Source: Antennarius striatus (taxonomy: Eukaryota; Chordata; Actinopteri; Lophiiformes; Antennariidae). Taken from it: DNA of 64,000 bases. Positions 1 to 63,453 of the stretch are shown here, piece by piece. Every line of letters starts with the position of its first letter. Positions within the stretch are counted from its first letter, which is position 1. The translations under genes were made by a program, and so were the position numbers. The stretch covers positions 14,033,501-14,097,500 of the forward strand of contig NC_090797.1 in assembly GCF_040054535.1 (NCBI RefSeq), read 5' to 3'. A model generated the notes under the pieces. The model was not told where the DNA came from and ran no database searches. It saw nothing but the letters and a program-made list of their open reading frames with translations.

Positions 1-2
1 CT

Positions 3-653
3 AGAACTTTCCCCACTGAGCAACTGCGTGTGGCATACATTGTTACGCAGCTGACTGGCAAGGCCAAGCAGTGGGCAACTGCCACATGGGAGGCTGGGTT
101 ACCATGCACCCAAACGTCAGCCCTGTTGGAGGAGGAGATGAAGAGAGTCTTCGACCGGTCCCGGCATGGCCATGAGGTGGGAAGGGGATTACTTCATGTC
201 AGACAAGGTGACCGGTCTGTTTCTGATTATTCTATAGAGTTTCAAACCCTGGCCACCCACAGTGGTTGGGACAGGAGAGCAAGATATGATGTTTTCCTTG
301 ACGGCCTGTCGGAGAGGATAAAGGATGAACTGCTGACCCGCGATCTTCCAGAGGATCTGGAGAAGTTGATCAAGCTGGCTATTCGTGTGGATTCACGGAT
401 AGAGGAGAGAGGACGCTTTCGTCGCTCCAGCAGTCTCCAGTCGCATACCACTCCCTGGCCATCATCGGGATGTTCTCCCCCATTCCGTGAATACCCGCCA
501 GGCCCATCTGCAGAGGGGGAACCCATGCAGCTGGACAGGGGCTGCCTCACTAAGGAGGAGAGACAGAGGAGGGTAAAGGAGCATGTCTGCTTTTACAGCG
601 GTAAACATGGACACTTCACTGCTGGGTGTCCAGTAAAAGGCAGCGCTCACTAG
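3..653 (+). pseudogene. gag remnant of the gypsy element
   Basis: The frame is open from base 3 to a TAG at 651-653 and gives about 216 residues. The first half resembles a retrotransposon Gag capsid region (RVAYIVTQLTGKAKQWA near the start; FLDGLSERIKDEL in the middle). Near the C-terminus lies a CCHC zinc knuckle in which the second cysteine has become serine (CFYSGKHGHFTAGC), so it should no longer bind zinc normally. No true start is visible because the frame runs off the window edge. Confidence 0.85.
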
Positions 654-655
654 TG

Positions 656-1170
656 AGGAGAGGAGCACTAGTGGACGGACTTCCTGTCGAGAACTCCTCA
701 AAGAACAGAACGTGTCTGCCTGTCACTCTGGAGTGGAGTGGGGGAGCAAAGAAGACTTCGGCCCTGATGGATTCCGTTGCGGAATCCAACTTCATGGATA
801 GAGGGGCAGCCATCAGATGGGGAATTCCCTTGGAGGGGATAGAGTGTCCACTTTCCTTAAGTTGAACATTTCCGGAAACCATTAGGAGAGGAACAAGTTT
901 AACCTAATGGAGTCACCACACTCCCCTGTGGTGCTGGGCCATCCCTGGTTGAACAAACACAATCCTTAGATGGACTGGGGAAAGCATGAAATTAAGGGGT
1001 GGAGCCCATCTTGTCTTGAATCATGTCTGGTGCAAGCAAATAATCATGTTCTTGTTCCTCAAGGTGAGGAGATTCCTTGTGCAGATAACGTCCCTAAGGT
1101 GTATCAGGACCTGAGGATGGTATTTAGTAAGTCTCGTGCGACCTGTTTTACCTCCTCACAGACCTTATGA
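656..1170 (+). pseudogene. Protease and linker region of the gypsy pol, broken
   Basis: Fragments in different frames read as the aspartic-protease region of fish gypsy elements. The stretch ALMDSVAESNFMD (about 763-801) aligns with the family active site ALVDSGAEGNFMD, and its catalytic D-S-G has become D-S-V. Further on VVLGHPWLNKHNP (about 931-969) is the conserved C-terminal part of the protease fold and is followed directly by a stop. VYQDLRMVFSKSRA (about 1100-1140) is the usual lead into reverse transcriptase. At least two frame changes and one stop disrupt it. Confidence 0.8.
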
Positions 1171-2499
1171 CTATTGATCTGAAACCCGGGGCAGTGCCTT
1201 TTTTCTCTCTCCCTTCCCGAGCACCTGGCCATGGAGAAGTACCTGGAGGAGTCGCCGGCTGCCGGGATCATCAGACCTCGTCGTCACCAGCTGGGGCTGG
1301 TTTTTTTCTTTGTGGGTAAGAGGGACGGCTCCCTCAGGCCCTGCATTGATTACCATGGGCTGAACAACATCACCATCAAGAACCCCCTCCCTCTCATGTC
1401 CACAGCTTTTGAGCTACTCCAGGGAGCCACCATCTTCACGAAGCTGGACCTGCGCATTGCTTACCACCTGGTGCGTATAAAGGAGGGGGATGAGTGGAAG
1501 ACCGCATTCAACACTCCCACAGGTCACTGGGAGTACCTGGTGATGCCATTCAGATTTTGTAACGCCCCAGCAACATTTCAAGCTCTCATAGTGCTTCAGG
1601 ACATGTTTGTGTTCATCTATCTTGATGACATTTTTATCTTTTTTAAATCCACAGAGGAACACATTGAGCACGTTAGAAGGGTACTGAAAAGACTTTTGGA
1701 GAATCGCCTATTTGTGAAGGCCGAAAAATGCGAGTTTCATGTCTCAGCCACCACCTTCCTGGGATTCAGTATTGCAGCTGGATGCATTAGTATGGACCCT
1801 GCCAAGGTTAATGCGGTTTTGGAGTGGCCTACACCCACCGCCCGTAAGTCTCTCCAACGTTTCTTGGGTTTCGCTAACTTCTACAGTCGTTTTATTAGGA
1901 ATTACAGCTCGGTGGCTGCTCCACTCACTGCCCTCACGTCCACCAAGGTCCGGTTCTGCTGGACAGAGGAGGCAGAAAAGGCTTTTTGGGCGCTGAAGGG
2001 ACGATTTACTACTGCTCCCATTCTCATCCACCCGGACCCAGAGGTCCAGTTCATTGTCGAGGTCGATGCCTCGGATGTGGGGGTAGGAGCAGTTCTCTCC
2101 CAGAGAGCACTTTCTGACAATAAGGTTCACCCATGTGCCTTCTTCACTCGCCGTCTTAGCCCACCTGAACGTAATTATGATATCGGTAACCGGGAACTGC
2201 TGGTGGTGAATTTGGCCTTAGAGGAGTGGCGACATTGGCTTGAGGGTGCTAAACATCCATTTTTGGTGTGGACCGGCCACAAGAACATGAAATACCTTCA
2301 AAAGGCCAAGAGACTCAACCCTCGTCAAGCCAGGTGGGCTATGTTTTTTGCTCGGTTCAACTTTCACCTCGCTTATCGTCCAGGGGACAAGAACATCAAA
2401 CCATACGCTCTGTCCAGACGTTATGAGCAGGAGGGAGCCCCCCCCAAAGATGACACCATCCTAAGGCCCAAGGTCTTTGGCCGTAACTATAGACATTAA
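1171..2499 (+). pseudogene. Reverse transcriptase / RNase H of the gypsy element
   Basis: The open frame 1231-2499 carries the RT fingers ([16 protein letters not shown]), the palm ([15 protein letters not shown]) and the catalytic YLDD box ([10 protein letters not shown], about residue 130). The thumb follows ([15 protein letters not shown], then [20 protein letters not shown]). RNase H starts at [19 protein letters not shown]. Relative to the family a short piece is missing between NAPATFQAL and the YLDD strand, and KPYALSR replaces the usual ADALSR ending. The link to the upstream frame is broken near 1170-1230. Confidence 0.9.
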
Positions 2500-2525
2500 G
2501 GATCAGGTGAAAGCGGCTCAAGGGG

Positions 2526-3297
2526 ATGGGGGGGGCTTCTATCAACTGTCCTGTGAGTTGTTTGTTTGTGCCAATCGCCATGCGCAAAAAGGTTTTAAAG
2601 TGGGGTCATGCATCACGACTGTCATGTCATCCCGGGGTTCAACGTACTCTTAAATTCATTGTTAGAAGATTTTGGTGGCCTGACCTCAAGAAGGATGTTC
2701 AGGATTTTGTGTCTGCTTGCTCAGTCTGTGCCCAAGCAAAAGAGTCTCATCAGCTCCCCTCTGGTTTGCTCCAACCACTACCCACACCTCGTCGCCCATG
2801 GTCCCACATTTCTGTAGATTTCGTTACTGGTCTGCCTCCCTCCAATCATCATAACACTATACTGACTATTGTGGACAGATTCTCCAAAGCCATCCAATTT
2901 ATTTCTTTGACCAAACTCCCCTCAGCACAAGAAACTGCGTCATTGCTTGTTGAACACGCTGTTCGTTTGCATGGTATTCCGTCAGACATTGTATCGGATC
3001 GCGGTCCTCAATTCACTGCCAAGTTTTGGAAAGCATTTTGCAATTCTCTAGGCACCTCAGTCAGTCTCACTACCGGTTACCACCCTCAATCCAACAGCCA
3101 GACTGAGCGGGCAAACTAGGTCATTGAAACTGTTCTTAGGCGTCTCTGCGCTAGGAACCTATCCGCTTGGAGCCATCAATTACCCTGGGCCGAGTATGCC
3201 ATAAATAGTCATACGTCCACGTCTACTAACTTATCCCCCTTTGAATGTTGTCTGGGGTATCAGCTCCCACTATTTCCCAGCTATTTCCCTGATTTTC
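2526..3297 (+). pseudogene. Integrase remnant of the gypsy element
   Basis: The frame 2526-3119 contains the zinc-binding H-H-C-C part ([12 protein letters not shown] ... CSVCAQAK) and the catalytic core. The three acidic residues can be seen in [20 protein letters not shown] and SQTERAN. A TAG at 3117-3119 stops it directly after the catalytic glutamate helix. The same frame continues after the stop as [17 protein letters not shown] and [10 protein letters not shown], up to about 3297. The chromodomain-like end expected for many of these elements is absent. Confidence 0.88.
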
Positions 3298-7941: not shown

Positions 7942-8056
7942 TCAGACTGATGGATGGTTCTGAACGGTGAAAGAAGGACGACAGCATCGATTTCTGGGCA
8001 TCTTTCTGCCCTGCACAGAAACACACACATGAAATGTCATCAGATCAGTACAGACA

Positions 8057-8097
<41 letters not shown>

Positions 8098-11000
8098 TGT
8101 GTCTGTGTCTGTGTCTGTCTGTGTGTACTTACATAGTTGTGCATTGCTGACCAGTCAGGATACTGTTTCATGTGTTCCTCTCTTGCTGTCCAGGCTTCTT
8201 CGTAATATTTGTCCTGCTCCTCCTTTGGCAGAGACGACCACTGTGGACAGACACATATAGGTAGATGTCCACTGTGGACAGACACATATAGATATAGATA
8301 GATGTCCACTGTAAAAAGACACATATAGATATAAATCGATGTCCACTGTGGACAGACACATATAGAAATAGATGTCCACTGGAATATGTTGTCTGTCCCT
8401 AACACTGTTAGTCATAACACAACCACATACTGTCAAGGTGTCTAATGCTGACATGAGCAGGAACACATGAACAAAAACTAATGATGATACCCTCTCAATA
8501 AAAGATCATTCACGCTTAAAAATACAAATGGACACAGACAGAGCTTTCCGTATACACTCAGTCTTCTTTTGTTGGTATTTGTTCATACACTTTAAAGATT
8601 GTGCAAATGTGTTTGGAGTCTCCAGATGACAGCAGCCTTGTCGTACCCAGAGTATGCTTGCCAAGCAAGCAGAGAATAGGACTGCTGTTTCCCTACCATG
8701 CATGTCGTAAGGTGACTAAGGAGGGTTGGGCACAAGGCTAACAACCTTGTACTGTAAAAAGGGAAAATTGTTACAGAAACGCCATCAACTGACCAAAAGA
8801 CTAGTAGCCTGGGAGAGGAAGGTACCTCAACAAGAGGACGTATGATGATGTGTGGTGAAAACCGTAAATCTACGGAAGCTACAAGGCCGATCCCATTTCT
8901 ATCGACAAGGACCATAAACGTCGGAACATGGAATGCGAGGACCATGTACGAGATGGGAAAAACATGTCAAGTAGTCGCAGAGATGAAGAGCTACAACCTC
9001 ACACTGCTCGGAATCAGCGAGACCCACTGGACACAGTCAAGACAAAGAGGACTGCCCATGGAAGAAATGCTGCTGTATTCTGGACACAAAGAAGACAATG
9101 CTCCACACACAGTAGGTGTTTCTCTCATGCTCTCATGACCAGCACAAAGAGCTATGATGGGATGAGTACCATATGGATCAAGAATCATCACAGCATCCTT
9201 CAGAACAAAGAAGAAGAAGATTAAGATGAATGTTATCCAGTTTTATGCGCCAACCAATGACAAAGACGAAGACGAAGAAAATAAGAACCAGTTCTATGAC
9301 AGACTGTAAAATGTCATGGCCAAGTACCCAGAGAAAGGTGTCAACATCCTCATGGACAAGACAACACCGGAATGAGGAAGTTATGGAAAGGCACGGATTG
9401 GGCGAGATGAATGAGAACAATGAGAGATTTGCAGGCTTCTGTGCAATAAACAACCTGGTCATCAGTGACAACACTTTCCCCCACAGAAGAATACACAAGG
9501 CCTAGAAGAATGTCACCGGACTTAATGACTGAGAACCAGATCGATCACATCTGCATGGACATGAAATTCAGGAGGACCAGGTAGGGGTTAGAAGAGGAGC
9601 AGACGTATCTGATCACCACATACTAGTAGCCAGACTGAAGCCGAAGTTGAAGAAGAACTGGATGGAAACAACAACTAAGAGGTAGAGGTACAACGTCAGC
9701 CTGCTGGAAGATTTTAAGATCAGATAAGAATTCAGATTGCCTATCACCAACAAGTACCAAGTGTTACAGAAACTGCTGGAAGAGGAAAATAGTGTAGCAT
9801 CGAGAACCAGTGGCAGAAGGTGAAAGAGACACATCTACCTGCCAAAAAGTAGTAGGTAATAGTAATAGTAGTAATGCTACATCCTTATGGAGTGCCAACA
9901 AAGCTGGTCATTAGGAATTCCTACGAGGGAATGAGATGCCGAGTGGTCCATGGAGGTCAACTGAAGACTGGAGTCAGACAAAGCTGCCTTTTATCACCTT
10001 TCTTCTTCCTTCTGATGATTAACTGGACCATGAAGACATCCAAAGCAGACAAAAGAAACGGTATTCAGTGGACATAGACTTCACTGACAACTTAGTCCTA
10101 CCTTTCCAGAGACACCAGCAGATGCAGGATAAGACGACAGAGCTGGCAGCAACTTCATCACAAGTTGTCCTCAAGATTCATGAAGACAAGACCAAGATCC
10201 TCAAGATCAATACAACAAGTGAGGACCCGGTCATGCTTCATGTGAGCGAGCTGGAAGAGCTATAAACCTTCACATTATTGGGCAGCATCATTGACAGACA
10301 GGGCGGCACAGACGCAGATGCCATAGCAAGAATTGGCTGCCTGAGAAGGATCCTCCAGATACACTGGCCTGACACCATCAGCAACGCAGACCTGTGGCAA
10401 GAAAAACCTGGCACCATGACCTTGATGCTGACATCAAGAGGATGGAAAAGACCTGGAATCAGCGTGAAAAAGTGGCACAGGACAGACCACTCTGGCAGAC
10501 TGTTGTCGACGGCCTATGCTTAGATAAAGAAACAAAATGCTGAAGAAATGAGATGGCTTCAGAAAGTTACCTTCCGTCCCAGAATTTTATTCACAACACC
10601 ACTCCCTTGGCGCTGGATGTCAGGGTGGACAAATGGCCTTTGCTCCTTCAAGAACAGCATGAATGCATTTGGTGGCTTCTTGACGTAGGGACGGTTGCGA
10701 TGCTGATTCCTCCTATGATAAACACATGGTAGAGCTTAGGTTAACGTAGAAGCAGAGAGAGAAGCAGAACAACACATAACATGTGTCAAAGTTAACCTTG
10801 TGTGTGCCGAACATTAATATCCATTAGTGATTAGAATCGTGATGCATGCAGAGATGTTTGCATTAATATAACACACATGAAATAGAAGGAACAAAAATGA
10901 TTAAATCATGAGTGAATTAAAACTGGAGAAAGGTTTCTTCAGGATGAAAATGTCCAAAAAAAATTACTTTTTTGACTGGTATACGGAGTAGTTCCTTGGT

Positions 11001-11907
11001 GGAGCAGCAACAACAGAGTTAGTTAAGACCTGTGGGTATCTGTACACTGGTAGTCCATTCCTTCACAGACAAAAGACACATTAGATTTTAGAAAAACAGT
11101 GTGAGACTTTCAATTACAACAATCATTCACTTGAGTGTTACGTACAGCATTCCAAGAAGTTCCATGGAGTACTGCGAGCTCTCAGGGATCCTCCCCACTG
11201 GGATGTCTGGACTCTGAATATACAAAGAGCACAGGTGATTAGACAAGCTGCAAAGATGTCACAGGTCCACAAGAAGACAGGATTACCTCTCCTTACAATT
11301 TACAGTAAGAAAAAAAATTCAGTATGGGAAAATACATGGAGTGATGGAAGGACTTACTGTTTGTAGAGCAGCAGCAGAAAAGTCTCCAAGCTTTGGTGCT
11401 GTTGGAATGTTGGAGACGGACCAGTAACCCTTCAGGTGCATTGGAGTAGCAGCAGGAGTGTTGTTGCCAGCCTCTTCTGCCGAGACCCCTCCTAGCCACT
11501 GGTCCAGTATGTTCTTTGTTTCTGTGGCAGCAGGGCTACTGATGGCCACTGCTGTTGGGTCATCCACTGTAGGACCCTGGCACATGTTCTGAGGTGAAGT
11601 GGAAGGAGGTGGAGCACTGAAATCTGCTGTTGGGAAGTTCTCATCAAACCACCGATCCAACAGGTTCAGTATTTCAGTGACATCCAGTGTTCCCTGCTCC
11701 AACATCTTGCTGGCTGCTTCTGATATACTGCACCTGGAACCTTCTCCATCCCCACTCTTATTTGTTCCAGGAGCAGCATTGAGCATAGGAGGTGGAGGCA
11801 AGGGTGTATCATTCAGGTTGTTCAGTGTGTTGTCCAGAGGTGTTAACTCTCTGCAGTCGACCTGTGAGATAAACTCCAGAAGCTTTTCAGTCACTTTGTC
11901 GAAATAC
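7942..11907 (-). CDS. TCF/LEF-like HMG-box transcription factor, first exon not found
   Basis: Six exons join with matching phases: 11907-11358, 11213-11146, 11060-10968, 10712-10571, 8240-8133 and 8010-7942 (stop TGA 7944-7942), about 343 codons. All introns are GT-AG. The HMG box is split over exons 4 and 5 (RPYVKKPPNAFMLFLKEQR ... NKILGRK, then WSSLPKEEQDKYYEEA ... HMKQYPDWSAMHNY). It is followed by a basic tail GRKMPRNR. Sequence, the NY-G-basic tail and the 108-nt second box exon match the TCF/LEF class rather than SOX. TCF/LEF boxes bind the DNA minor groove at Wnt-response elements in the nucleus. The 183-codon N-terminal exon is Pro/Ser/Thr-rich and acidic, and I see no beta-catenin-binding motif in it. 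The protein ends 14 residues after the basic tail, without a C-clamp or CtBP motif. The 5' exon, needed to supply two bases, was not located. Confidence 0.85.
8058..8126. repeat. (TG)n microsatellite filling most of the last intron of the HMG gene
   Basis: About 20 GT units followed by degenerate GTGTCT units. It starts a few bases after the donor of HMG-gene exon 5 (minus strand) and makes up most of the 122-bp intron 8011-8132. Confidence 0.95.
8238..8382. repeat. 31-37 bp minisatellite that duplicates a splice acceptor
   Basis: Units begin with CCACTGTGGACAGACACATA at about 8238, 8269, 8306 (variant CCACTGTAAAAAGACACATA) and 8343; a partial one starts at 8376. The first unit overlaps the 5' edge of HMG exon 5 (minus strand), so each unit carries a copy of the acceptor TGTCCACAG|TGG (variant TTTTTACAG|TGG). 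Confidence 0.92.
8600..10560 (+). mobile_element. APE-type LINE (RTE/CFDP2-like), internally deleted
   Basis: Plus-strand frames give an AP endonuclease (INVGTWNARTMYEMGKT, LLGISETHWTQS, LLYSGHKEDNAPHT, MNVIQ-type strand near 9228, GRHGLGEMNENNERFAGF-like text, then ENQIDHICMD). The RT follows (NSYEGMRCRVVHGGQLKTG, QSCLLSPFFFLLMINWTM) and then the C-terminal region (LGSIIDRQGG, RRILQIHWPDTISN). Stops, frameshifts and a large deletion between EN and RT (near 9850) make it dead. It lies in intron 4 of the HMG gene in opposite orientation. The 5' boundary near 8600 is approximate. Confidence 0.85.
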
Positions 11908-12771: not shown

Positions 12772-13080
12772 TAGAGTCATGACTTACTGTACTGGCTGCA
12801 TGTCGGTTGACAACTTAACTTCCTTTTCTTTCACTGTTTATTTGTTGATGTGATTCAGATGTGTTGTTATAAACAAAATAAATATCAGGTTGCAATCAAT
12901 CAGTTTTCCCAGTTTGATGCTCTGATATCCTGCAGTTTGGTGGTTGACAGTTGTCTTGGCCTCACTGATGTGGAGTGACTGACTGACATTACTTTAGGTG
13001 ATATGTTAATACAGTCAATGTGGGTGGAGTCAAGTGGAATCCACCAATCAGAAGCCTGGTCAAACTGAATCAGCCAATCA
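12772..13080 (+). repeat. Dispersed repeat R1, copy 1
   Basis: About 310 bp, from GAGTCATGACTTACTGTA to the GTGGGTGGAGTC / CCACCAATCA block. It is repeated in the same orientation at 51110-51425, where a short insertion (CTCTTTTCAATGATGCTG) lies after the TTTGATGCTCTGATG block. Confidence 0.9.
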
Positions 13081-14102: not shown

Positions 14103-17100
14103 ATGGCTGAACACCTCATTCAGCAGAGGTAGAGATGTTAAAGTTACATTATGGAACTGCGGCATTTTATTTATTATGTGTTGTTTTAATGTCCTGTAAT
14201 TACATCTGGTTAGTTTTAAGGAATATAACTTCAGTATTTAGAGTAGTAATGATATTTAAATGTAATCAATAATGATTTAAAAACATTTAAAATCACAAAC
14301 AACCTCATATAACAATTATGTTTGTATGTTGAGGACTGCTTGTAATTGAAATTGTCGTCAAATATTGCTGATAACGTCACTCAAAGTCTTAGCAGGCCAA
14401 ATCAGTGTCTGTCCTCTTTTCCAATTAAATTCAGTTAGAATAACTTCTTGCCTCCTGTTATTTCCTGACAGGAGATGTGTTCAGTTTCTCTTTGTCTTAG
14501 TTACAGGGTGAATAATATTTCTGTGCAGCTTCCATTCACATTTCATTATGTAAAGCGATGAACATTGCAGTAGCTACTGGATAGACTACAGTCCAGCTAC
14601 TGCATCACTTATGACTATGTTCTAGTTCCATGGTGGTTTTTGTTATTTGCAGGTTGTCTTTGCCGCGACTCGAGTGAGGACCTTCAATACTATTATGAAT
14701 GTTATAATATTTTTCTGTGATCAGTCAAAATTTTGCATTAAATTGTAGAAGAATCATTTTTAGCTGACTTTTTTGCCATCATATGACACATAAATTAACA
14801 ACTGAAGTTTTAGTTGTTACATACAGTGGAATGAATAAGTTTCGGCACCCCTGATAGTTTTCAAGATTTTCCTTTATAAATCACTGGTTGTTCAGATCAG
14901 CAGTTTCAGTTCAATACATCATATAGCAGACAAACACTGATATTTGAGGAATGAAATTTATAGGATTTACAGAAAGTGTGCAATAATTATTTAAATATAA
15001 AATAAGCTGGTTCGCAGTTTTCGACATCCTTGTTGTTTTATTGATTTAAATACTTGAGCACTAATTATTGGAAGACAATTTTTTTTTGTCAGCTCATTGA
15101 CCCTGGACCTACACACACAGGTGAAGCCAATCATGAGAACGGCTGACGTGTCAAAAGTCCATGTCGAAAAGTTTCAAATCAGCAGAGGTGAAGGATGGTG
15201 AGAACAGTCAAACTGAACCCACAGACGAGGTCCACAGACCTACAACATGATCTTGCTGTAGATGGTGTCACTGCATCGTTCAACTCTTCAGTGTACTTTG
15301 CAGAAGGGCAGGCTGTATGGGAGAGTAATGAGGAAGAAACGTTTTCTGCACACTCGCCACAAAAGCAGGTACTGGGAATGTCGCATGGATTCCACTCAGA
15401 ATCAGCAGATTCTTGTGAACAATGTTCAAGAAGGACAAAGTTGGAGTTGTGTCGGGGCTGGATACTTCATTCATTCTGATGGGTTCATCTAAATTTAATT
15501 TTTAAAGTAGGCACCTAAAATGAACACAAACATAGAATAAATAGAGGCATACAGCATCACTGTTACTATGTCTATGAGTAACCAGTACCATTACAGTATG
15601 CTGTTTTTGTTAATCAGATTTAGTTGACAGGAACAAGATTGTGATGTTGCTGTCACACTAGGTGTGCAGAAGTGACTCAGACATAATGGAAATTACATAC
15701 ATGACATGTAGCTAAACAAAATTGTATGTTTGGGTTCTTCTACTGCACAGACAGGAGGATGACCTTCAAGAGGACGACTGGTGGGAGTCCTGGAAGATGG
15801 AGGATGAGTCTGAGGCCCTCCACCGCCAGGTCGTCAGTTGGTCACACCGTCACTGGTCCATCTGACACCACAGGTGTGATGAGAAAGAAAGAAATCAGAC
15901 TCGTTGAAATGATCAGATTAATGAATGTTGATGATTTAAATGGAATGAGAAGAAGAGGAGGAGGAGGCCCAGGAGGAGATGAAGGAGTGAGAAGCTCCAT
16001 CCCTCTGACGTCTGACCTCACAGCTCCTCAGGGACCGCTTCTCCCACCAACACCAGAGGTTAGATCACATCTCATACTGGATTTGACTTGCCAGGACAAG
16101 TACTGTATGCTTTTGAGTTGCATCATGGGAAATGTAGGTTTTTGTAGCTTGACCCATGTTCAGGACTAAATCTCTGAATGTTTCAACCTCTGCTGCATTA
16201 GTTACTAACATTCTCTTTTAAAAATGTCCCTTGAGAGTTCATTTGTGTGGCAAATTTTCCTTGTATCCTGTCATTATGCCAAGCTAGGCTAACTAATGAC
16301 TGGCCCAAATGTTCAGAAGTTCACCTGATTCTTCTGGGTGAGCCTTGAGTTTTGAATTTGTATTGGCAAATATCAGATCAGATATTAGAATTATGCTGGT
16401 CTTACTTGAGATGATCTTCAAAATTTAATCCAGGAATGTCTTGAATTCCAGTTGTTAAATCAAACCTTATGTTCTTCCTCTTCCTGCCAACAAATATCAA
16501 CATTATTTCGATCATTTTAATAACAGTTTTGACCATCTATATTTTAAATGATACAAATGAATCACGTACACATCCTCATCTGGTTTAAAAATTTTTGTCA
16601 TTGTTTGACTTGTATAGTTTACTCAGGTGTGATGCTGAGACTGAAAGCAGCATCAGGAGGTTCCAGTGGAGTCATGACCCAGTTGGACTGGGACCGCCTG
16701 TGTGATGATCCGTGTCTCCTGCATGGACCTGTAGGATTAGATGAAGTACACAAACTGTGGCCTGCAGGAGGGTGAGGCTACAGGAAGTAGCTGCTGGCAG
16801 GTCCATGTCCAGGGTTCAATGTGTCCACGCTCACAATGTCACACAGTCTGCATGTTTTTTTTCTGTCTCTCCTCAGATCATCATCATCACAGCTGCTGGA
16901 TGCCCTCATTGAGATCCACTCCAAGGTGCGTTCCACAGAGTCATGGAACTTGAAACCGTCCTGTGTGAACCCAGTCTCACTGTTCCACATATCAGGGTGG
17001 TCTATTCGTCAATAAGGGGATGCTCACTACAACAGGAGGTAAGCTGTCTTTGTGTCATTCGTGTTGTCTGAGCCAGTGCAGCATCTTTTCTGTCCCCCAC

Positions 17101-18058: not shown

Positions 18059-18200
18059 TAGGAAGAGAAAACGCAGGAACGAGTGTGAGGACGGGAGGCC
18101 TTCCGTCCGTCAAAAAACCTCCCAACGCGTTCATGCTGTTCAGCAAGGAGCAGCGATCAATCATCAAACATCGAAAGAAGAATTTAGAAGAAGACTGACT
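18059..18200 (+). pseudogene. Broken paralogous HMG-box exon (TCF/LEF-like)
   Basis: After an acceptor (TTCTTGTAG|G) the sequence reads KRKRRNECEDGRPSV in one frame. It then continues as VKKPPNAFMLFSKEQRSI in another frame and stops at TGA (HRKKNLEED*). This corresponds to exon 4 of the minus-strand HMG gene (KKRNQH...RPYVKKPPNAFMLFLKEQR), including the same entry phase. The frame change coincides with a repeated CGTC (TCCGTCCGTCAAA), that is, a 4-bp tandem duplication. The second half of the box is not present. Confidence 0.8.
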
Positions 18201-18253: not shown

Positions 18254-19600
18254 CATGGAAGAAGATATTTTTTCATCTTTTTCGTGCGAGGAGGAGGAGG
18301 ACAGCAACCAAGAAGACAATGAGGTTACAGAGTCCTTTGAGAGGCAAGTCAAACTAAACATGAATATTTAGTTTTTGATTTATCTATTCCCGTATAAATC
18401 ACTTTATATGCTTATACTGTAATATATATTTTATATTTGTTTTTTATACATAACGTGATGTATTTATGTAGGTTTATATAAACCGAAAATCAGGGCTGAA
18501 ATTATGAGTTTAGTAAACTAATTTTAAATAGATATACAGATTTTCCTAGGTTTTATTTTGTGTTATACTATTTATATTTTTCTTTCTTCATGACTTATTT
18601 TCTTTTGTAAAGTGACTTTTCACATTGTTGTAGGGGGCCAGAGAATTTGAATTTTTCAATTTTATTTTCACGTGTCTGTGTACAGATATGAGGAGAGTAG
18701 ACCAGGACCCTCTACACAGAGACCAGGACCCTCTATACAGAGACCCGGACCCTCTACACAGGGACCAGGACCCTCTACACAGGGACCAGGACCCTCTACA
18801 CAGGGACCAGGACCCTCTACACAGAGACCAGGACCTCTCCCCACCCACGCTGCATACACTGTGTGTCAACAACAACAGAAAGCAGCATACAATTAAGCAA
18901 CGGGCCAGAAGTACAGCAGGACTGATGTGGACAGCGAGGAGCTCTGCAAGATAAATTTTCATTCCAGCCCCCAGTTGTTCCTCAAGCTGGCTGACATCAA
19001 GTTTGGAACCTGTGGGACATACAGGGAAGACAGGGGGTAGTGCCCACCCCAGAGAAACATCGGTGGATCAGTGGGGGCTCTCTGGTCTTCGTCAAGTGGA
19101 TGTACACACGGGAGGTGCTTTGCTCCACCATCCATCCAGCAGTTTCTGGGGAGGTGGCAGGAGGAAGGTGAAGGTTAAAGATGGAAGCTGGTCGGTGAAG
19201 GAGATCCCCTGCCCCACCCCAGTTATTGCTTACAAAAGCACATGGATGGTGTGGATCTGTCGGACCAGCTGCTGCAATATTAGTCTACCCACCCACAGGA
19301 GTGTACGCTGGTACCACACCCCCTACTAACTCAAAGTAGGTGAAGCCCCTGACCCACGAGGACCTCCAGACGGAGCTGTGTGTGGGGTGGACAGAAGTGG
19401 GAGGCTCCAGAAGTACTGACCACATTCCTGTTGGCATTGCTGTGGCGGCAGACTCCAGCCAGAGTGCCATGCAAGGATGTAGGATCTTCCAACAGCGCCA
19501 TAAGGTGGACAATGTGAGAAAGCTCACCCCATGGAAACGCAAAGCCTGAGCGTTGTCACCCGTGTGTCGACTGGAACAGGAACTGCTTTGAAAAGTGGCA
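18254..19600 (+). pseudogene. piggyBac-type transposase remnant (PGBD4-like)
   Basis: A possible N-terminus at 18254 reads MEEDIFSSFSCEEEEDSNQE and ends at a GC-type donor. After an intron-like gap the frame continues from about 18685 with a coding minisatellite. Downstream HMDGVDLSDQLLQY (about 19239-19280), KPLTHEDLQTELC and NRNCFEKWH (about 19573-19600) match the C-terminal part of piggyBac transposases with the Cys-rich tail. Most of the catalytic domain between is lost, and many stops are present. I found no TTAA-flanked termini. Assigning the N-terminal exon to this element is inference. Confidence 0.7.
18699..18840 (+). repeat. 21-bp coding minisatellite encoding RPGPSTQ units
   Basis: Six full 21-bp units (18699-18824) and a partial seventh encode R/G-P-G-P-S-T-Q in the frame of the piggyBac-like remnant. 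Unit variation is 1-2 bases. Confidence 0.95.
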
Positions 19601-33868: not shown

Positions 33869-36800
33869 TCAGAGTCGAGTTTCCAGCGTTGCCACAGATG
33901 GTGAATGCTTTTTGTGAGTGATGAATGTGCAATTTATGCTGTTGGGAGAAAACATACAAACCTGACATCATTTGTTTCATGTTCAACAAAGAGGAAAAAC
34001 TCTGTTCAATGTAAAGTCTAATATCATAATTGTCACATTATCATTCGAGACTATTTTAAAATCAGTAATCATTATCTGAATACAGTACTAAGTGAATCTT
34101 GATGAGAAAAATCTACATAGCATGGTATCATATTGATAATGATAGAGTTTTATGAGAACGTATGACGAAACACACCTTTCTCTCTTACGCATCTCTTTAA
34201 TTGTTTGAGGGAGATGTTGTCCAAAAGTCTCTGGCAGGAAGAAAGCAGCAAAGGCAGACAAGATACCCATGGTCCCGAACGCAATGTGAGGTACATACTT
34301 ATAGTACACACCTGAATGAGGAAATTGGATTATTAGCTCCTTTGTCAAAATGTTTTACTGAGATAAATTCAATTATTGCAGACTGTGACTCTAAAAGTCA
34401 GTGTACTCACTAAGGCTTAACACAAAAGGTGCGAGGCAGCTTCCCACTCTGGCCACTGTGCTGCAGGTTCCTGTCGCTGTGTTCCTGATGGTGGTCGGGT
34501 AAAGCTCTGCTGTGTAGATATACATCAGGTCTGAACCAGCTGAGATGGAAAATTTACCCAGCATCTCCAATGCAACAGCAATATAGGATAAACCTGGAAA
34601 GTGGAAAATAAAAGTACCATTCTTAATGCTTCCACTGTGTGGTCCATCGTCCATGTACACAAAAGAATACAGTTGGTTTAGCCAGCTAATATTTCATCCC
34701 TCAATTATGTTAACACAAATTTGAAGGCTTTTAAAATACATTTGAAAGGCTTTTGTTTTCCACCCATGCACATTTAAAGACTGTTTCCAGTCACAAAGTT
34801 TATTTACTCACTCACTGCTTTGTGAATTTCCTAGTTTGGGATCATTATAGTACAGTGTATCTAATCTGATCTATGTATTTCTTTTGAGATTTTTCTCATG
34901 TAAGTGCTGGAAAACATAGTGAAAGGCTAAAAACATTTAATAAAGACACAAAAATTACAGTTTTTAATGTTCGTGTGGTTGAAAGTCACTATTCTTTTGT
35001 TTGAGCAAATACAAAAAAAATTATGATAATGATGGAAATAAAATTAACATACTGCTTCAAGGCAGGCCTGATAATACTCACAAAATATCTACAGTGACTT
35101 ACTTCCTTGTTTTGCAACATCAGCTTATGAGAAATACTGTATTTTTAGTGCTCCAAATGATGTCTTTACATGACCATATCATTTGGACGACATCTAAACA
35201 TGTTTGAACATCCAGTCTTGTTATTTTTGTGGCAAGGCATGAAGTGACCAGAGTCAGTGTAATATAAGACAATGATAATGAGTCAAGTTTAACAAGTTTT
35301 GAAACATGTAATTGTTTGTAGAGCAGATAGTTTCATACTTTGAGGTATCAGCTGAATAGAGAACAGTGACAGTGATCCAGTGACCAGGATGCAGATGACA
35401 GTCATTCGTCGTGTCATGTATTTCAGCGCGAGCCATATGCTGACATGTGCTGGTATCTCCACTGCTGCACAGAGGAAGCTGCTGATGTAGGGGTCAGCGT
35501 GAAGCTGGGAGGTATTCAACGAAAGACCATAATATCCAATCCTCATACTGAACCTGGACAGAGTAACAGAACAAAGTGAAGTTTTAATAAAAATCCGCAT
35601 AGCAATATCATTAATAACACAAAAAAACCTAGACCATTTGACTTAAGACCTGAATTCATGCTTCACTGCCACAAATATACAGTATTCGTAACTGAACAGT
35701 AAATCCATGAATAATAAGAGTATTAATAACTGAATAATTCAAGTTTATATATTGCAACTAAAAGTTCAAATGAGCATAGTTTAGGCAAACGTAGCAAAAT
35801 TGGTTGCCAGCTTTACCTAAACGCTCTACAGCCTCAGTTAATATTCATATGGAGGTGAAGGGACCAATTCAAGCACTAACAGTAACACTATTACAACATT
35901 TACAGTACTGTATGTAGCTATGTCAATCAACAACTGACTTACCTCCAGCCAGATATTCTATTTAAGAGACAGCTGGTGGTTCCTAAAGCTGGCTATGCAA
36001 ATTGAAGCAGAGAGGTCGTCTCAGCTCAGGGGTTTTTTTTACCATCAAGAGAGTAGAAATACCCCCCCCCCCTACAGTTCCTAGTGGGTCTCCTCCAATG
36101 GCGCATGAGAGTTCTGATAGAATTATTTGATCACGGTGTGACTGCAGCTATCTCCCAGATATTGTCCAAAGAAATATATAAAGACGGCAACATATGTAAT
36201 AATAAAAGTAGAAATTGTAATTCACTTATGGACAGCTAGAAGTTGTTTTCACAGAGAATCTAGTCAACAAAAGTGTTTCTTTAGACCTCCATGGTGTCAA
36301 TCTGAAACAGGATTCTGACTTTCTTTATAAAAAATGTAATTACTTAAGGATTTTATTCTAATATACATTTGTGTAAAATGTTGTAATTGTCATAACAGAT
36401 TTTTAGTTATGGCTAAAAATGTGTTTTGGGAGATGTCCATGGTCTCATCAAAATCTGATCAGATTATCCTGAAATCAATTGAATTTGAATTATTCATGTA
36501 ATGTCTGAGATGTAATGTTAATAATTATGGATGGATAGATGGATGGATGGATGGATGGATGGATGGGCCATACTCACCACACCAGACACACAGTGATTGT
36601 CGTGTCTCTTATATTTCTTGTTTTCACCAGGTGGAAGATGTTATAGTGTTTTTTAGGGAGTGTCTTTGTTTCTTGGTCCTGATTGATAAAACAATAAGAT
36701 TAAAAACTATTAATTCTCAGGAGCAGATTGGTGTCATTTGCAATCTTTGCTGTGGTGAGAAAATATTTGCCTCATTAGAGGGATATTGGGCTTCACTGTT

Positions 36801-45632: not shown

Positions 45633-48600
45633 CAACAACAAAAACAACAACAAAACATACCATACCACGGCATACACTGCACAAATATTGTTCTTATGTT
45701 TGCAATTTAATGAATGTTGAAATGTTTATATGTATAATAAAATATATAGTTGTACGAAGGTCTCATTTTTGTTTGTCTGCACCGGACACGTTGCCATGGC
45801 GAGGCGCATACAATTTCATGACATGATCCGTTTTGGACCATTAGCCAATGTGTTCATTAACTTTAAAATTCTCTTTGTACCAAAAACTAATTATGCATTA
45901 AAGTTAATATTGTTACCAATTACTGGCATGGTCAAGGTTGTAATATCTTTATCAGAAATATTTAACCATATGCAAATTTTTCTAAATATTCCATATTTTG
46001 TGTTTTTCCCATTGGAAGAAAAAGAGGGTTGTAATGGCAAATTCCATATAGACATATATAATAATAAAAAAACTTTATATCTATGAATAGGGCTGAAGTA
46101 ATGGAAAAGATCAGATGCACTGAAAGAAAAAATATTTCTGTATGGCATGTTTTTTTTTAGACTTTTATGAAATGTCAATTTTTTGTCTCTTTGGTTAAAG
46201 TGTTTGGAAAAGCTAAAATTCTCATTGTACCAAAAACTAATAATGCATTAAAGTTAATAATCCTACCAATTGTTGGTATGGTCAAGGTTGTAATATCTTT
46301 ATCAGAAGTATTTAACTGTGCACTAACTTCTGGAAATATACCACATTTTGTGTTTTTCCCATTGGAAGAAAAAGAGGGTTGTAATGGCAAATTCCATATA
46401 GACATATATAATAATGGAAAAACTTTATATCTATGGATAGGGCTGGAGTAATGGAAAAGATTGGTGCGTTGAAAGAAAAAAATATATGTCTGTATTACAA
46501 TTTTTTTTTAGACTTTTATGAAATGTCAATTTTTTGTCTCTTTGGTTAAAGTGTTCAGAAAAGTTATAATTCTCATTGTACCAAAAACTAATGATGCATT
46601 AAAGTTAATAACCCTACCAATTATTGGTATGGTCAAGATTGTAATATCTTTAGCAGAAGTATTTAACTGTGCACTAACTTCTGGAAATATTCCACATTTC
46701 GTGTTTTTCCCATTGGAAGAAAAAAAGGTTATAATGGCAAATTCCATATAGACATATAAAATAATAAATAAAACTTTATATCTATGGATAGGGCTGAAGT
46801 AATGTAAAAGATTGGTGCATTGAAAGAAAAAAATATATTTCTGTATTACAATTTTTTTTAACACTTTTATGAAATGTCAATTTTTTGTCTCATTGGCTAA
46901 GGTGTAGAGCCATTTTAATCGGTACCTAAGGGTTAACAATGTTTTTCCTCACCACTGTCCACAAGTTTTTGCTTATGGAGTTGAACAGTTGAATAGTCTC
47001 AAATTGCTATTCTTGTGCATTGGTATGACTTGTTTTTAGTTGGCTTTACTAACTGAGCAAAATGCTGTTGTGTTTCAACGAAATTTAAAAACGTAAAATA
47101 TTTCCTTTAATGATGCTGCATTATGGCTTGTCTAGCCAATAAGAATGGTTTCTACAGTGGTTCCTGAACTTTTATGAGACAAATGACAGAAGTTTCAAGT
47201 TGATCATTCAAAAATATTACAACTGATGTTGTATAATGTGAAGTAAAGTCACAGTGTTGTTTGCAGAAGTCTGTGACATTACAGGGAATTCTTTAATCTT
47301 TTGATTAGTAAATTTCATATTATTTAATTTTTCAATAGCATGTGAATCAATGGCCAACAATATACGTAATGCATTGATTTTTATGAGATAATTGTAAACT
47401 TTGAGTCCAAGCATTACCACAGTTGTCACAGATCAAAGAAAGGAGAGAGAAGCTCATACTGCTAAAGAAACAACTCTTACCTCAGAGACAACGGTGGATT
47501 GGTAGATGTCCCTGCTGTAGCTCCACCCGTCTACACAGCCCTCCTGCTCCACGTCTGTGAGGTTGACGTCTCTGCCAGGAGCGAGTCCCCGAGCTGAGAG
47601 ATTTCTGATCACATCAAGCCTGAACCTGCTGCATTGGCTCAGCTCCTGCTTCCCGTCCACCACCTCCCAGTCACACAGATATATCAAAATGTGTTTGCAA
47701 AGTTTTCAGTCATCCGACCCTGAATTGTTCATGGGCAGTTGCCATGACATAATTGATTGGCTTTTCCATTTTTTTTACAAGAATAAGGCAGTATATTGGT
47801 AACAATCATATACAATAGACGATGGTCTCATTATAGTGACCCTCCAATACAATGAATTTCTCTGTTAAGGAAGTCCACTGCTATCTACATAATTTGGACA
47901 GATACAGTGCCTTGCGAAAGTATCCCCCCCGCCCCCCCACAAGAACTTTTTTGACATTTTGGCACATTTTGGCTTCAAACAGTTTTTATTTGTAAACACA
48001 ATATAAAATGTTGAACAAATTTGGTTCCACTCACAATTGTGTCTCGTATGTTGTTGATTCTTGAAAAATATTTTCAGTTTGTTATATTTGAAGCCTGAAA
48101 TGTGGTAAAATGTCAAGTTTTTGGGGAGCCAATACTTTCGCAAGGCACTGTATATTAATACATGTAAAATAAATAAATATTCATTATATTTTCATTATCA
48201 ACTACTCATTTCAAATATTATCACTCTAAAACAATTTGATGATTCCAACTTTTTAGATTTAACTTTTTAATTTAATATTTTGGGTTTTCAACTCTTGATT
48301 CTACCAGAATAAAGATGAAGTCAAATATAAAGACATAACTTTGAATTTTGAGAAACTATAATTTGTATACTAAATGAATAATCATTCAAATTATTAATTA
48401 AATTAATTTGCATACCAATTATCTCCGTACAAGGTAACGTGTGCTGGGTATTACGTGTTACAAACTGCTTTTTCAAACTCTAACATGGAACCTCTTGAGA
48501 ACTAAGATTTGAATGAGCGATCATTTATATTTTCTCCCACCAATGTGGGATTCGTAGGAACTGACAGGTATAAAACCTAAGCTTTGTCTATCAAAGTGGA

Positions 48601-59456: not shown

Positions 59457-62400
59457 TTAGTGGATCCACGGGTGCACCAGCAGTTCCTCCAGGGTGGAAC
59501 GTTCCTGAGGATCTAATGTTAAACACTTCCTCAGGAAATGCTGGCAGTCTAAAAGGACAGAGAAAATATTTTTGGATGAAGATCTTATTATCTATGGACT
59601 GTTTTAACATGTTGGACATTCTCCTCTGGTGTCCAGCTTAGGAGGGCTGAGTCAGATGTCATTCTGTCTATTCCCTGGTAGTATAAACATGAGGTAACGA
59701 CAGATTGCTGAAATTTTATCATTTACTAATTGAAAGAAATCATAACAGAATCGATAGTCTGAATTTGAAAGGCTACTGGTTCATTTTTAAGGAGAAAACA
59801 GATGTGAGGAGGGTTCTGTTCAGCTTCTCTGGTCTGTAAAAACGCTTTGAGCAGATGTGATGACCCCTTAGCTACGACACAACGTTAGCACCGCACCACT
59901 CCTTAGCTAATACTGAAATTTGATCTGACTGCCTATCTGATGATACTCTTCAAATTCTTGTCCAAGTTGCTGTTTCAGAATTAATGTAAAGCTGCTACGG
60001 CAGTGTGACTGTTAGCTAGGAAGAGGGTGATTGCTAATGCTAATGCCAACTAGAATCTTTCAGCAGCTAATGGGTTGACTTATTTTCAACTGGATAAACA
60101 CTGTGAAATAAGAAGGATTTTTCAGATGGCCTGTGTTTCTACTATTTCCCATCGTGAGTCTTTGACGTCACTGAACACAATCAATGGGAAGCTTCGCTCA
60201 CTATTGGTGAGAAACCCAGATTCGGTCGTGACTCCAGAGTTGTCTTACCTTGGCTCACTTTAAGCCGTCCAATCTGCTCCCTGAACTTGTGTGGTTTGAG
60301 GAGGAACCGATAGGTGGAGAACTCAAGCGTGTTGTCCAACATTTCATAGAGAACAGCACCGAGTTGCCAGACGGTGGTGGGTCCGGCTCTGTAGGCCTTC
60401 ATGACAAAATACTCAGGGGGGAAGAAACTTGTAGTTCCTGCAATGCACACGTTTAATGAGAAGAATTCTCTCACAGATCAACAGAGAGCTGAAGATGAGG
60501 TGCTCCATCCTGCAGTCGTACCTTCTAGAGTTTGGAAAGGTTCTGCCCTCACTTGGACACTACTTCCAAAATCAATGAGCCGAACTCGAGGGGCTTCTGA
60601 TCCAATTTCAACCAGAACGTTCTCCATTTTGATATCTCGGTGGAAGACGCCCTGAGAGTGGATCTCATTGGCCGCAGCTACAAGCTGCTTCATGATGACC
60701 TGAGATAAAGAGAGCAGATGGATTGATGGATGGATGGATGGATGGATGGATGGATGGATGGATGGATGGATGGATGGATGGATGGATGGGTGGGTGGGTG
60801 GCTAGACAGACAGACAGACACCAGGAGAAAAAGAAACACTGACATCACAGGACAGGGCATACCACAAGACATACACTACACTAACAGACACATGCAGCAC
60901 TAACAGGACATATATTAAACAAAAATATAAACACTATAAAAAAGAATAAAAAGTGAAGGTGAAGATAGCAGGAGGCCCACATGGTGGGTAAGGTAAACCC
61001 TTCTTACATTGTAAGACATGTCACTATCTAATGTCACAACATCACAACACCTTGGCCCCACTACATTGCAGCACAGGCTGACATCCCATTTCCTCCCCTC
61101 CATTTAACTGTGTGCTGACCTCGCCACCTCCCCCCTGCTCCCCCTGAGAGCGTCATTGTACCCCCTGATGGCACGGGGCATGAAGGAGGACCTCAGTCTC
61201 TCTGTGGAGGCGCTGTGTCACAGCAGTCAGCCGCTGAAGGTGCTTCTCTGCTGGGAGAAGGTGGTGTGCAGGGGGTGGCTGGTGGTGGGAGGAAACAGTG
61301 CTTCTATATAGAAAGAATGACTCGTTCTCTACATTTACCAAATAACCTCAAATGATTTAGAACCCAGCAGGTTTCAGGATTTTTAGGTTTGGACCAAACA
61401 GAAAAAGCTGTGGATGTTATCACATGACAGGCACCTACTCACAGTCACAAAAACATGCCCCACTCAACTTACCTTAGCTTCCTGTTCGTTCAAGCCAATG
61501 GCCGTGTACGTAAAGAGGTCGACACAGGGAACAGGTCTCTCCATGACAAGGTAGAACCCATCCTCCAGGTCATACCAGTCCAGCAGTGACACAGCTGCAC
61601 ATTTCCCCATCCTCTCCTCTCCACCGGCTACTCTGTTCATGATTAGCACCTCAGTGGGGACCACGTATGTCTTCCCATTTATATGCTATAGGAGATAAAT
61701 TCAATGTGTTAGTAGATGTGGGAGTCTATTGTCCTACTCCAAAACTTAAAGGCAAAAATTCCTACTGTTTATGCTGAGGAGGGATGAGAAACTACATGAA
61801 CACCATCACCTGTTAGAACAATCTCAGTGATAGATTATTGAATTATTCCACAGGTACAGAGTGCAATGGACCCTCTCCAGTTTGCCTATCAGGCCAAGGT
61901 TGGGGTTGACGACGCTGTCTTGTACCTACTCCACCGTGTGCTCTCTTACCTGGACACCGGGGGCTGTGCCGTCAGGGTGCTCTTCTTTGACTTTTCGAGT
62001 GCCTTCAACACCATCCAGCCCCGGCTCCTGCAGGACAAACTGGCCTCCATGGCTGTGGACCCCTACCTCGTGAGCTGGATCACGGACTACCTAACGGACA
62101 GACCCCAGTACATCCGTATGGGGGACTGTTTGTCTTCTATGGTGACCAGCAGCACGGGGGCGCCACAGGGGACCGTGCTCTCCCCCATTCTCTTCACCCT
62201 CTACACATCGGACTTCAAGCACAACTCGGATACATGCCACATACAGAAGTACTCCAATGACACTGCGATTGTGGCATGTATCTGGGAGGGTGATGAGGGG
62301 GATTACAGGGCATTGGTGGCTGACTTTGTGGAGTGGTGCCAGCAGAATCAGCTCCAGCTGAACGTCTCCAAGACAAAGGAGATGGTGCTGGATTTCCAGC

Positions 62401-63453
62401 GGGCACCTCCCTCTCCACAACCAGTGTTAATCGAGGGAAGTGATGTGGAGGCGGTAGGAAACTATAAGTACCTTCTTGATTTAAAGTCACACAATGGACT
62501 GATGGCTGTCAGTCTATTAATATGGTATACTCTTCAGTGTTTAGAAAAAACAGGTCCCTTATTGGTTCAGCTTGAACCAGTACTTAATGTTAAAGTTTGG
62601 TTCACCAACCCTGACTTTGATTAAAAAAAAGAGTGACTCACCACTGGATGAGTCGTTGCATGCTTATGAGGGATGAGTTTGATGGCCACCTATGGAAACA
62701 TTTGTCTGTTATCCAGGAGTGATAATTGGTTATGTGGGTTAAGCAGAAGAACACACCAGTGATACGTACAGGCAGATCATCAGACTTCCTGCTCCCAGCA
62801 TAAACACATCCAAAGCCTCCCTTCATGATCATCTGAAGCTGCAGATACTTGTTCTCAAAGTCGCCTGGAAGCAGAAACACATTCATGTTGGGCTGTGAAC
62901 ATCTCAGCTTCAGTTGTTAAATGTTTTTGTCAAATCATCCTTTACATTGTAGTTGTAAATAATGCGTAGTTGACAGTTTGATATAAGGAAAAGTTTGCAT
63001 TGTTGGAAGCAGGTGTTCTCTGCCTAGAAATGACAAAAGTCTCATGTTTATGCTGGAAAGGATATTTGTAGCACATTACTCCAATGGGAACTTTCTGCAT
63101 CTGAGGGATCCCCCAACAACAAACTGTTGTTGGGGGATCCAGAAATCCTCTGCAGGCGTTTCCTCTGACATTTCATTATGAAACAGAAGCACACGCTCAT
63201 TGAGCTCACCTTTGCTGCTGCTGCTGGGGAGGGACATGGTCCCCCCAGCAGCGGATTCTGGGAGCTGCTTGTCTTCTGTCTTGTCATTCGCTCTGTCTTG
63301 CAAGACAGAAGTCCTTGTTGTCTGATGGACCTCCTCCATTTGGTGTTTGCTGGTGTTTTCTATTAATGGATAAATGTCTTCTAGTGAATTTGCAAGATTC
63401 AACATCGTTTTGGTGAATTGACTGTCGGTAAAATGTGTTTTTGTGAGCTGCAT
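59457..63453 (-). CDS. pim-like: PIM-like serine/threonine protein kinase
   Basis: Seven GT-AG exons join in phase: 63453-63210, 62864-62770, 62689-62642, 61685-61473, 60699-60522, 60437-60249 and 59548-59457; 352 residues. After an 81-residue Ser/Thr-rich N-terminal exon come the glycine loop ([14 protein letters not shown]), [10 protein letters not shown] (catalytic lysine), TEVLIM (helix C glutamate) and [17 protein letters not shown] (hinge, with the PIM-type ERP-x-P). The catalytic loop is [14 protein letters not shown], then [29 protein letters not shown] and ECQ-like [14 protein letters not shown] ... HPWIH. All catalytic residues are present, so it may be active; the first glycine of the loop is replaced. 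PIM kinases are constitutively active survival/proliferation kinases, and fish have large pim-like families. The start is the first in-frame ATG of exon 1; a TATA box lies upstream. Confidence 0.93.
60716..60802. repeat. (GGAT)n microsatellite abutting a pim-like splice acceptor
   Basis: About 20 units, then GGGT variants. On the minus strand it ends about 15 bases before exon 5 (60699). Confidence 0.97.
60810..61094 (-). other. Intron 4 of the pim-like gene
   Basis: No feature recognised. Confidence 0.5.
61095..61320 (-). pseudogene. 3' end of an L2-like LINE ORF
   Basis: The minus strand reads [15 protein letters not shown], a stop, then [20 protein letters not shown]. This resembles the conserved C-terminus of fish L2-like LINE proteins (QRSTFSG ... 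RSSFIPRAIRLYN). It lies in intron 4 of the pim-like gene on the same strand. Confidence 0.7.
61862..62500 (+). pseudogene. L2-like LINE reverse-transcriptase fragment
   Basis: Open from 61866: [59 protein letters not shown] and [20 protein letters not shown]. The catalytic box is [10 protein letters not shown], where relatives have FADDT or YSDDT, so one catalytic aspartate is lost. It continues to [15 protein letters not shown] and [10 protein letters not shown]. Both ends are truncated. It lies in intron 3 of the pim-like gene, antisense. Confidence 0.88.
63106..63140. repeat. Perfect 16-bp hairpin in pim-like intron 1
   Basis: GGATCCCCCAACAACA, loop AAC, and the exact reverse complement. 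It lies about 70 bases downstream (minus strand) of the exon 1 donor. Confidence 0.95.

Follow-up and report, generated by a model that had tools for sequence, protein, structure and literature searches.

A probable TCF/LEF-derived HMG-box gene with an acidic N-terminal exon and no recognisable beta-catenin-binding domain

The minus strand of the window (the whole 64-kb stretch of DNA analyzed here) carries an HMG-box gene of the TCF/LEF type, whose six exons (11907–7942) join across GT/AG borders into a single 342-codon open frame. The gene is real and, judged from its sequence, probably functional. What sets it apart is that the gene itself lacks a beta-catenin-binding domain and that its N terminus is different. 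We see slightly better than an even chance that this is an intact TCF/LEF-derived gene whose product binds TCF sites without beta-catenin, in competition with TCFs, and whose own N-terminal exon sets the output. Because no beta-catenin-binding domain was found, we refer to the product as a TCF-derived HMG factor and not as a TCF/LEF Wnt effector. A candidate start exon, a broken half-box copy, and a duplicated 12-residue motif in the N-terminal exon are new here.

The coordinates of the coding features are given in Table 1. All five introns run from GT to AG. A six-exon structure with five frame-keeping introns had been proposed in the preliminary description, and we recovered it at the stated coordinates as an open frame. 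E1 has a single base ahead of its first full codon, so that either at least one upstream coding exon, supplying two bases, or an internal start is needed. Within 4.6 kb upstream of E1, two candidate ATG exons were found with matching phase and a donor score of at least 7 (of 9). The nearer one (12801–12788), when joined to E1, predicts a product that starts with MQPVQYFDKV; its assignment as the start exon is a guess. An open run of 183 codons is unremarkable in a window of this size (∼0.5 expected by chance over the six frames), and the evidence for a gene therefore lies in the joined six-exon frame and in the box.

Table 1. Coding features of the TCF-derived gene and of the neighboring half-box copy
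Feature	Position	Strand	Description
Candidate first coding exon	12788..12801	-	codes for MQPV, with CA left over; donor ACA/GTAAGT (exon/intron)
E1, N-terminal	11358..11907	-	550 nt; 183 codons after a single leading base; acidic
E2	11146..11213	-	68 nt
E3	10968..11060	-	93 nt
E4	10571..10712	-	142 nt; basic leader and first HMG box half; ends GRK, phase 0
E5	8133..8240	-	108 nt; second HMG box half; phase 0 at both ends
E6	7942..8010	-	69 nt including stop; short basic tail GRKMPRNRCCRPSFTVQNHPSV
Copy B, isolated exon for the first HMG box half	18062..18198	+	shared block 18109-18156

The gene holds two further sequence features. A 37-bp tandem repeat (8238–8381) overlaps the acceptor of E5, and near-copies of this acceptor are visible by eye just upstream of the real one; a decoy of this kind, if used, would add ∼37 nt and shift the frame. 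Intron 4 contains mobile-element-like sequence on the plus strand (8750–10520, by eye), and Pfam reports nothing in the piece 8758–9135.

The identity of the box is supported by profile, structure, and tree comparisons. Pfam HMG_box scores 56.9 bits in the product against a cutoff of 25.4, and the only other family reported is the related HMG_box_2, in a search that mostly drops weak matches above E ∼0.1. Among the best 60 of 66 matches in the PDB, the closest solved structure is LEF1 (2lef, 79.3 bits, E 2.4e-21), which leads the next solved relative by 25 bits; capicua (54.1 bits), an SRY/HMGB1 fusion (46.1 bits, two stretches), and SOX5 (43.3 bits) follow. The box is identical to LEF1 at 42/80 positions, compared with 28/74 for capicua. 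In a tree of 13 boxes, seven of whose 12 comparison sequences were entered by hand, it sits on a separate long branch and groups with LEF1, TCF7, TCF7L1, TCF7L2, and Pangolin (support 100/98). The tree program flagged meeting long branches and an unsettled bootstrap, and with these warnings and the hand-entered sequences the tree supports the TCF/LEF group, not the order inside it. SOX identity was rejected on score (43 bits for SOX5 versus 79 for LEF1) and tree, and capicua identity likewise. The TCF/LEF-type box with its 108-nt second exon, as first described, is thus borne out by Pfam, the PDB, and the box phylogeny that had been suggested as a check. According to the available excerpts of PMC9303524, box position 43 is N or S and position 64 is S in the TCF7L1 subfamily, which these residues mark. 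The window box has S at position 43, as in TCF7L1, has M instead of S at position 64, and bears no LEF1 or TCF7 mark.

A blastp and tblastn search with three solved beta-catenin-binding domains against the product and all 64 kb returned nothing credible; the best match (E 0.084 at 16373–16299) and the next (E 0.57 at 11006–10935, in part overlapping E3) were both judged to be chance. Pfam contains a beta-catenin-binding-domain family, and no such family was reported in a scan of the product. In a motif scan, the product showed neither a C-clamp nor a CtBP motif nor the beta-catenin motif in its strict form, and five patterns (two for the C-clamp, one for CtBP, two for the beta-catenin domain) had no match on the window's minus strand; the strict beta-catenin motif occurs in only 296/2000 shuffles, so its absence says little. 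A degenerate form of this motif has a sole loose match, EKLLEFISQVDCRE in the N terminus, which was rejected with 328/2000 shuffles matching too. The earlier statement that no beta-catenin-binding motif is seen thus holds for the product and for the 64-kb window, where nothing credible appeared of the standard 5′ exon that the preliminary description had named as counterevidence.

That description had also counted the ends of the protein among its peculiarities. The C-terminal tail is indeed short (22 residues), but this is not unusual, as the tail of LEF1 is also short (∼27 residues). Likewise, the C-clamp and CtBP motif were not found, as reported, but their lack is ordinary because LEF1 has neither (PMC9303524, in the excerpts available). 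The basic tail, described as TCF/LEF-like, is weakly so: it is poorer than in LEF1, with GRKMPRNR in place of GKKKKRKR in the NLS tail, and a basic leader precedes the box. Compared with the LEF1 middle region (entered by hand), which also served for the co-repressor (Groucho) region, E1 does not rise above shuffles (858/2000 as good), and neither do E2–E3 (1644/2000 as good). The motif GxPVY in E3 was rejected as a leftover co-repressor site on the same 1644/2000 count. The N terminus was rightly called unrelated in that E1 is unlike the LEF1 regions tested.

We consider it very unlikely that the gene is an ordinary member of the TCF/LEF family with a beta-catenin exon that is located beyond the window or escaped the search. 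Alternative starts are used by TCF genes (PMC9303524, available in part), and E1 does require an upstream exon, but the three beta-catenin domains met nothing credible in 64 kb, E1–E3 come no closer to the LEF1 middle region than shuffles do, and a kinase gene fragment lies on the same strand at ∼60 kb.

The published mutational analysis of TCF7L2 allows the function of the box to be predicted by homology. In the parts of PMC10208975 available, Y337H abolishes DNA binding, Y337F largely keeps it, and a TCF7L2 form that lacks the activation domain acts as a repressor on TOPFlash; this repression is relieved by Y337H, N358K/T, W394L, and Y400H/C and not by Y337F. When 324 is subtracted from the TCF7L2 residue numbers, these four sites correspond to F13 (the tolerated form), N34, W70, and Y76 in the window box. 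The aromatic core (W41, Y52, and Y53) is kept; of the two methionines named in the same paper, M11 is kept and M14 (M338) is L. With these four sites kept or in the tolerated form, the box should, by analogy, bind TCF sites, and the protein could repress as dnTCF does.

E1 contains 24 D/E and 10 K/R residues (net charge −14), and P, L, A, T, and S are abundant. Its 12-residue stretches VTEILNLLDRWF and ATETKNILDQWL form a [VA]TExxNxLDxW[FL]-like pair that only 2/300 shuffles equal, whereas a triple repeat was rejected (20/300 as good). The motif copies look like amphipathic helices and may bind a cofactor. The negative charge, the composition, and the aromatic-hydrophobic motif pair would also suit an activation domain, in which case the protein would be a beta-catenin-independent activator that turns TCF-site genes on without Wnt. 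We regard this as unlikely, since composition is no evidence and a 9aaTAD-like pattern occurs in 1992/2000 shuffles of the product. Equally improbable, in our view, is a purely passive competitor in which only the box matters and the remainder is a disordered spacer. Such a mode has a precedent in dnTCF7L2, which represses by DNA binding without an activation domain (PMC10208975, in part), but a 183-codon exon kept open with a duplicated motif exceeds the needs of a spacer.

A lone first-half box exon (copy B), located on the opposite strand ∼5 kb past the candidate start exon, is a relic paralogue of this type of gene. None of 500 shuffles reached its DNA match to exon 4, and the similarity ends right after the shared block. 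An acceptor-like AG is seen by eye at its 5′ border; the copy is broken by a stop 13 codons past the shared block, and a second box half for it was not found in the window. Exon 4 and copy B share 16 codons, nine of which differ, eight synonymously. When the 12 changes were placed at random 200,000 times, no placement equalled this, a result flattered by the short block and by its discovery through a protein search. Given these mostly synonymous differences, the two copies seem to have diverged for the most part while selection acted on the protein.

This pattern, the open six-exon frame, and the intact splice borders agree with the preliminary description in that the gene probably is functional. 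The broken neighbor, the uncertain start exon, and the mobile-element-like sequence seen by eye in intron 4 would also fit a decaying or recently dead duplicate. In a decay simulation (1000 runs, one indel per eight substitutions assumed), frames were left intact in 8% of copies at 2% drift, in 0.2% at 5%, and in 0/1000 at 10%, and the box differs from LEF1 at 38/80 places. Despite the 8% of copies that pass as intact at 2% drift, the 342 codons free of stops and frameshifts, the intact splice borders, and the synonymous pattern against copy B make a dead duplicate quite improbable.

The window contains several further features. Past copy B, the plus strand at 18256–19560 has by eye the look of a broken piggyBac-type transposase, with no Pfam match in 18955–19326. 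Long open frames at 1–3116 (plus strand) resemble a Ty3/gypsy-type retrotransposon by eye, and an open frame at 61842–62621 (plus strand) is that of a reverse transcriptase (Pfam RVT_1, 67.7 bits). On the minus strand, a protein kinase gene fragment occupies 60481–60801 (Pfam Pkinase, 52.4 bits), next to a Pkinase match under the cutoff (60184–60477, 17.8 bits), and exon-like frames at 34091–34693 have by eye the look of an SLC22-type transporter, for which Pfam reported nothing in two pieces at E up to 1. A 351-bp tandem repeat (45863–46905) comprises three copies with 90% matches.

In TCF genes the box is split between two exons. The window gene has, in addition, a phase-0 intron between the second box half and the basic tail. 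Hemichordates and echinoderms have one fused exon (exon X–XI) for the second box part and the NLS, and the intron separating the two is described as a chordate innovation (PMC9303524, in the excerpts available). The intron of the window gene appears to be this published chordate intron, the exact position of which we infer. A chordate-type intron makes a fast-evolving derivative likelier than an old side branch, and the gene probably derives in this way from a chordate TCF/LEF gene. The ancient branch outside all animal TCFs, as drawn in the tree, was rejected because of this intron and is likely a long-branch effect.

For the intact, beta-catenin-independent factor that we favor, the following mechanism is proposed. 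The protein would enter the nucleus, and its box would bind CTTTG-type Wnt response elements. The protein would not be switchable by beta-catenin, and by occupying TCF sites it would lower Wnt output. The acidic exon with its two motif copies would recruit a cofactor of its own and set the outcome at these sites. As far as sequence can tell, the factor probably acts in the manner of a dominant-negative TCF to which an N-terminal module has been added. If this is true, an extra TCF-derived gene would act as a standing Wnt antagonist or as a separate input.

No such gene is described in the available excerpts of the chordate survey PMC9303524, which give five TCF/LEF genes each for zebrafish, medaka, and two pufferfish (section 3.1); PMC11855550, also available in part, merely lists tcf7l1a. 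Four peptide strings of the box were not found in the open-licence literature, where no title among the matches listed describes this gene. Three pattern matches to possible relatives in viral contigs were set aside, none being confirmed. In cichlids, “transcription factor 7-like 2-like, two gene copies” is over-expressed in testis/male tissue of four species (table 3 of PMC4202336, in the part available). These genes, linked to the present one by name only, are perhaps of the same family and may be ordinary tcf7l2. We tentatively raise the possibility, doubtful as it is, of a fish-specific, multi-copy TCF-derived family, perhaps of the germline or testis, that is permanently uncoupled from beta-catenin and reads Wnt elements through a new N-terminal cofactor module.

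The window gene resembles LEF1, TCF7, TCF7L1, and TCF7L2 in its HMG box (42/80 to LEF1) and in having two box exons plus a separate tail exon, and it shares the short C terminus of LEF1. In contrast to these genes, it has no beta-catenin domain, no recognisable LEF1-like middle region, and a poorer basic tail, about half of its box residues are changed, and it possesses an unrelated acidic exon of 183 codons. The divergent box recalls that of lamprey TCFc, for which no exon I or II was found; TCFc has a C-clamp, whereas none was found in the window gene, the N-terminal exon of which is unlike the LEF1 regions tested (PMC9303524, in part). A TCF-type box without a beta-catenin domain is also known from the Delta-N isoforms of LEF1, TCF7, and TCF7L2 (same source, same excerpts). 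However, these isoforms are alternative products of genes for the full protein, whereas no full form of the window gene is visible and its N terminus is a different sequence. If the proposed function is true, the antagonist would be encoded as its own gene rather than as a splice form, and surveys that define TCF/LEF by the full domain set could miss such a gene.
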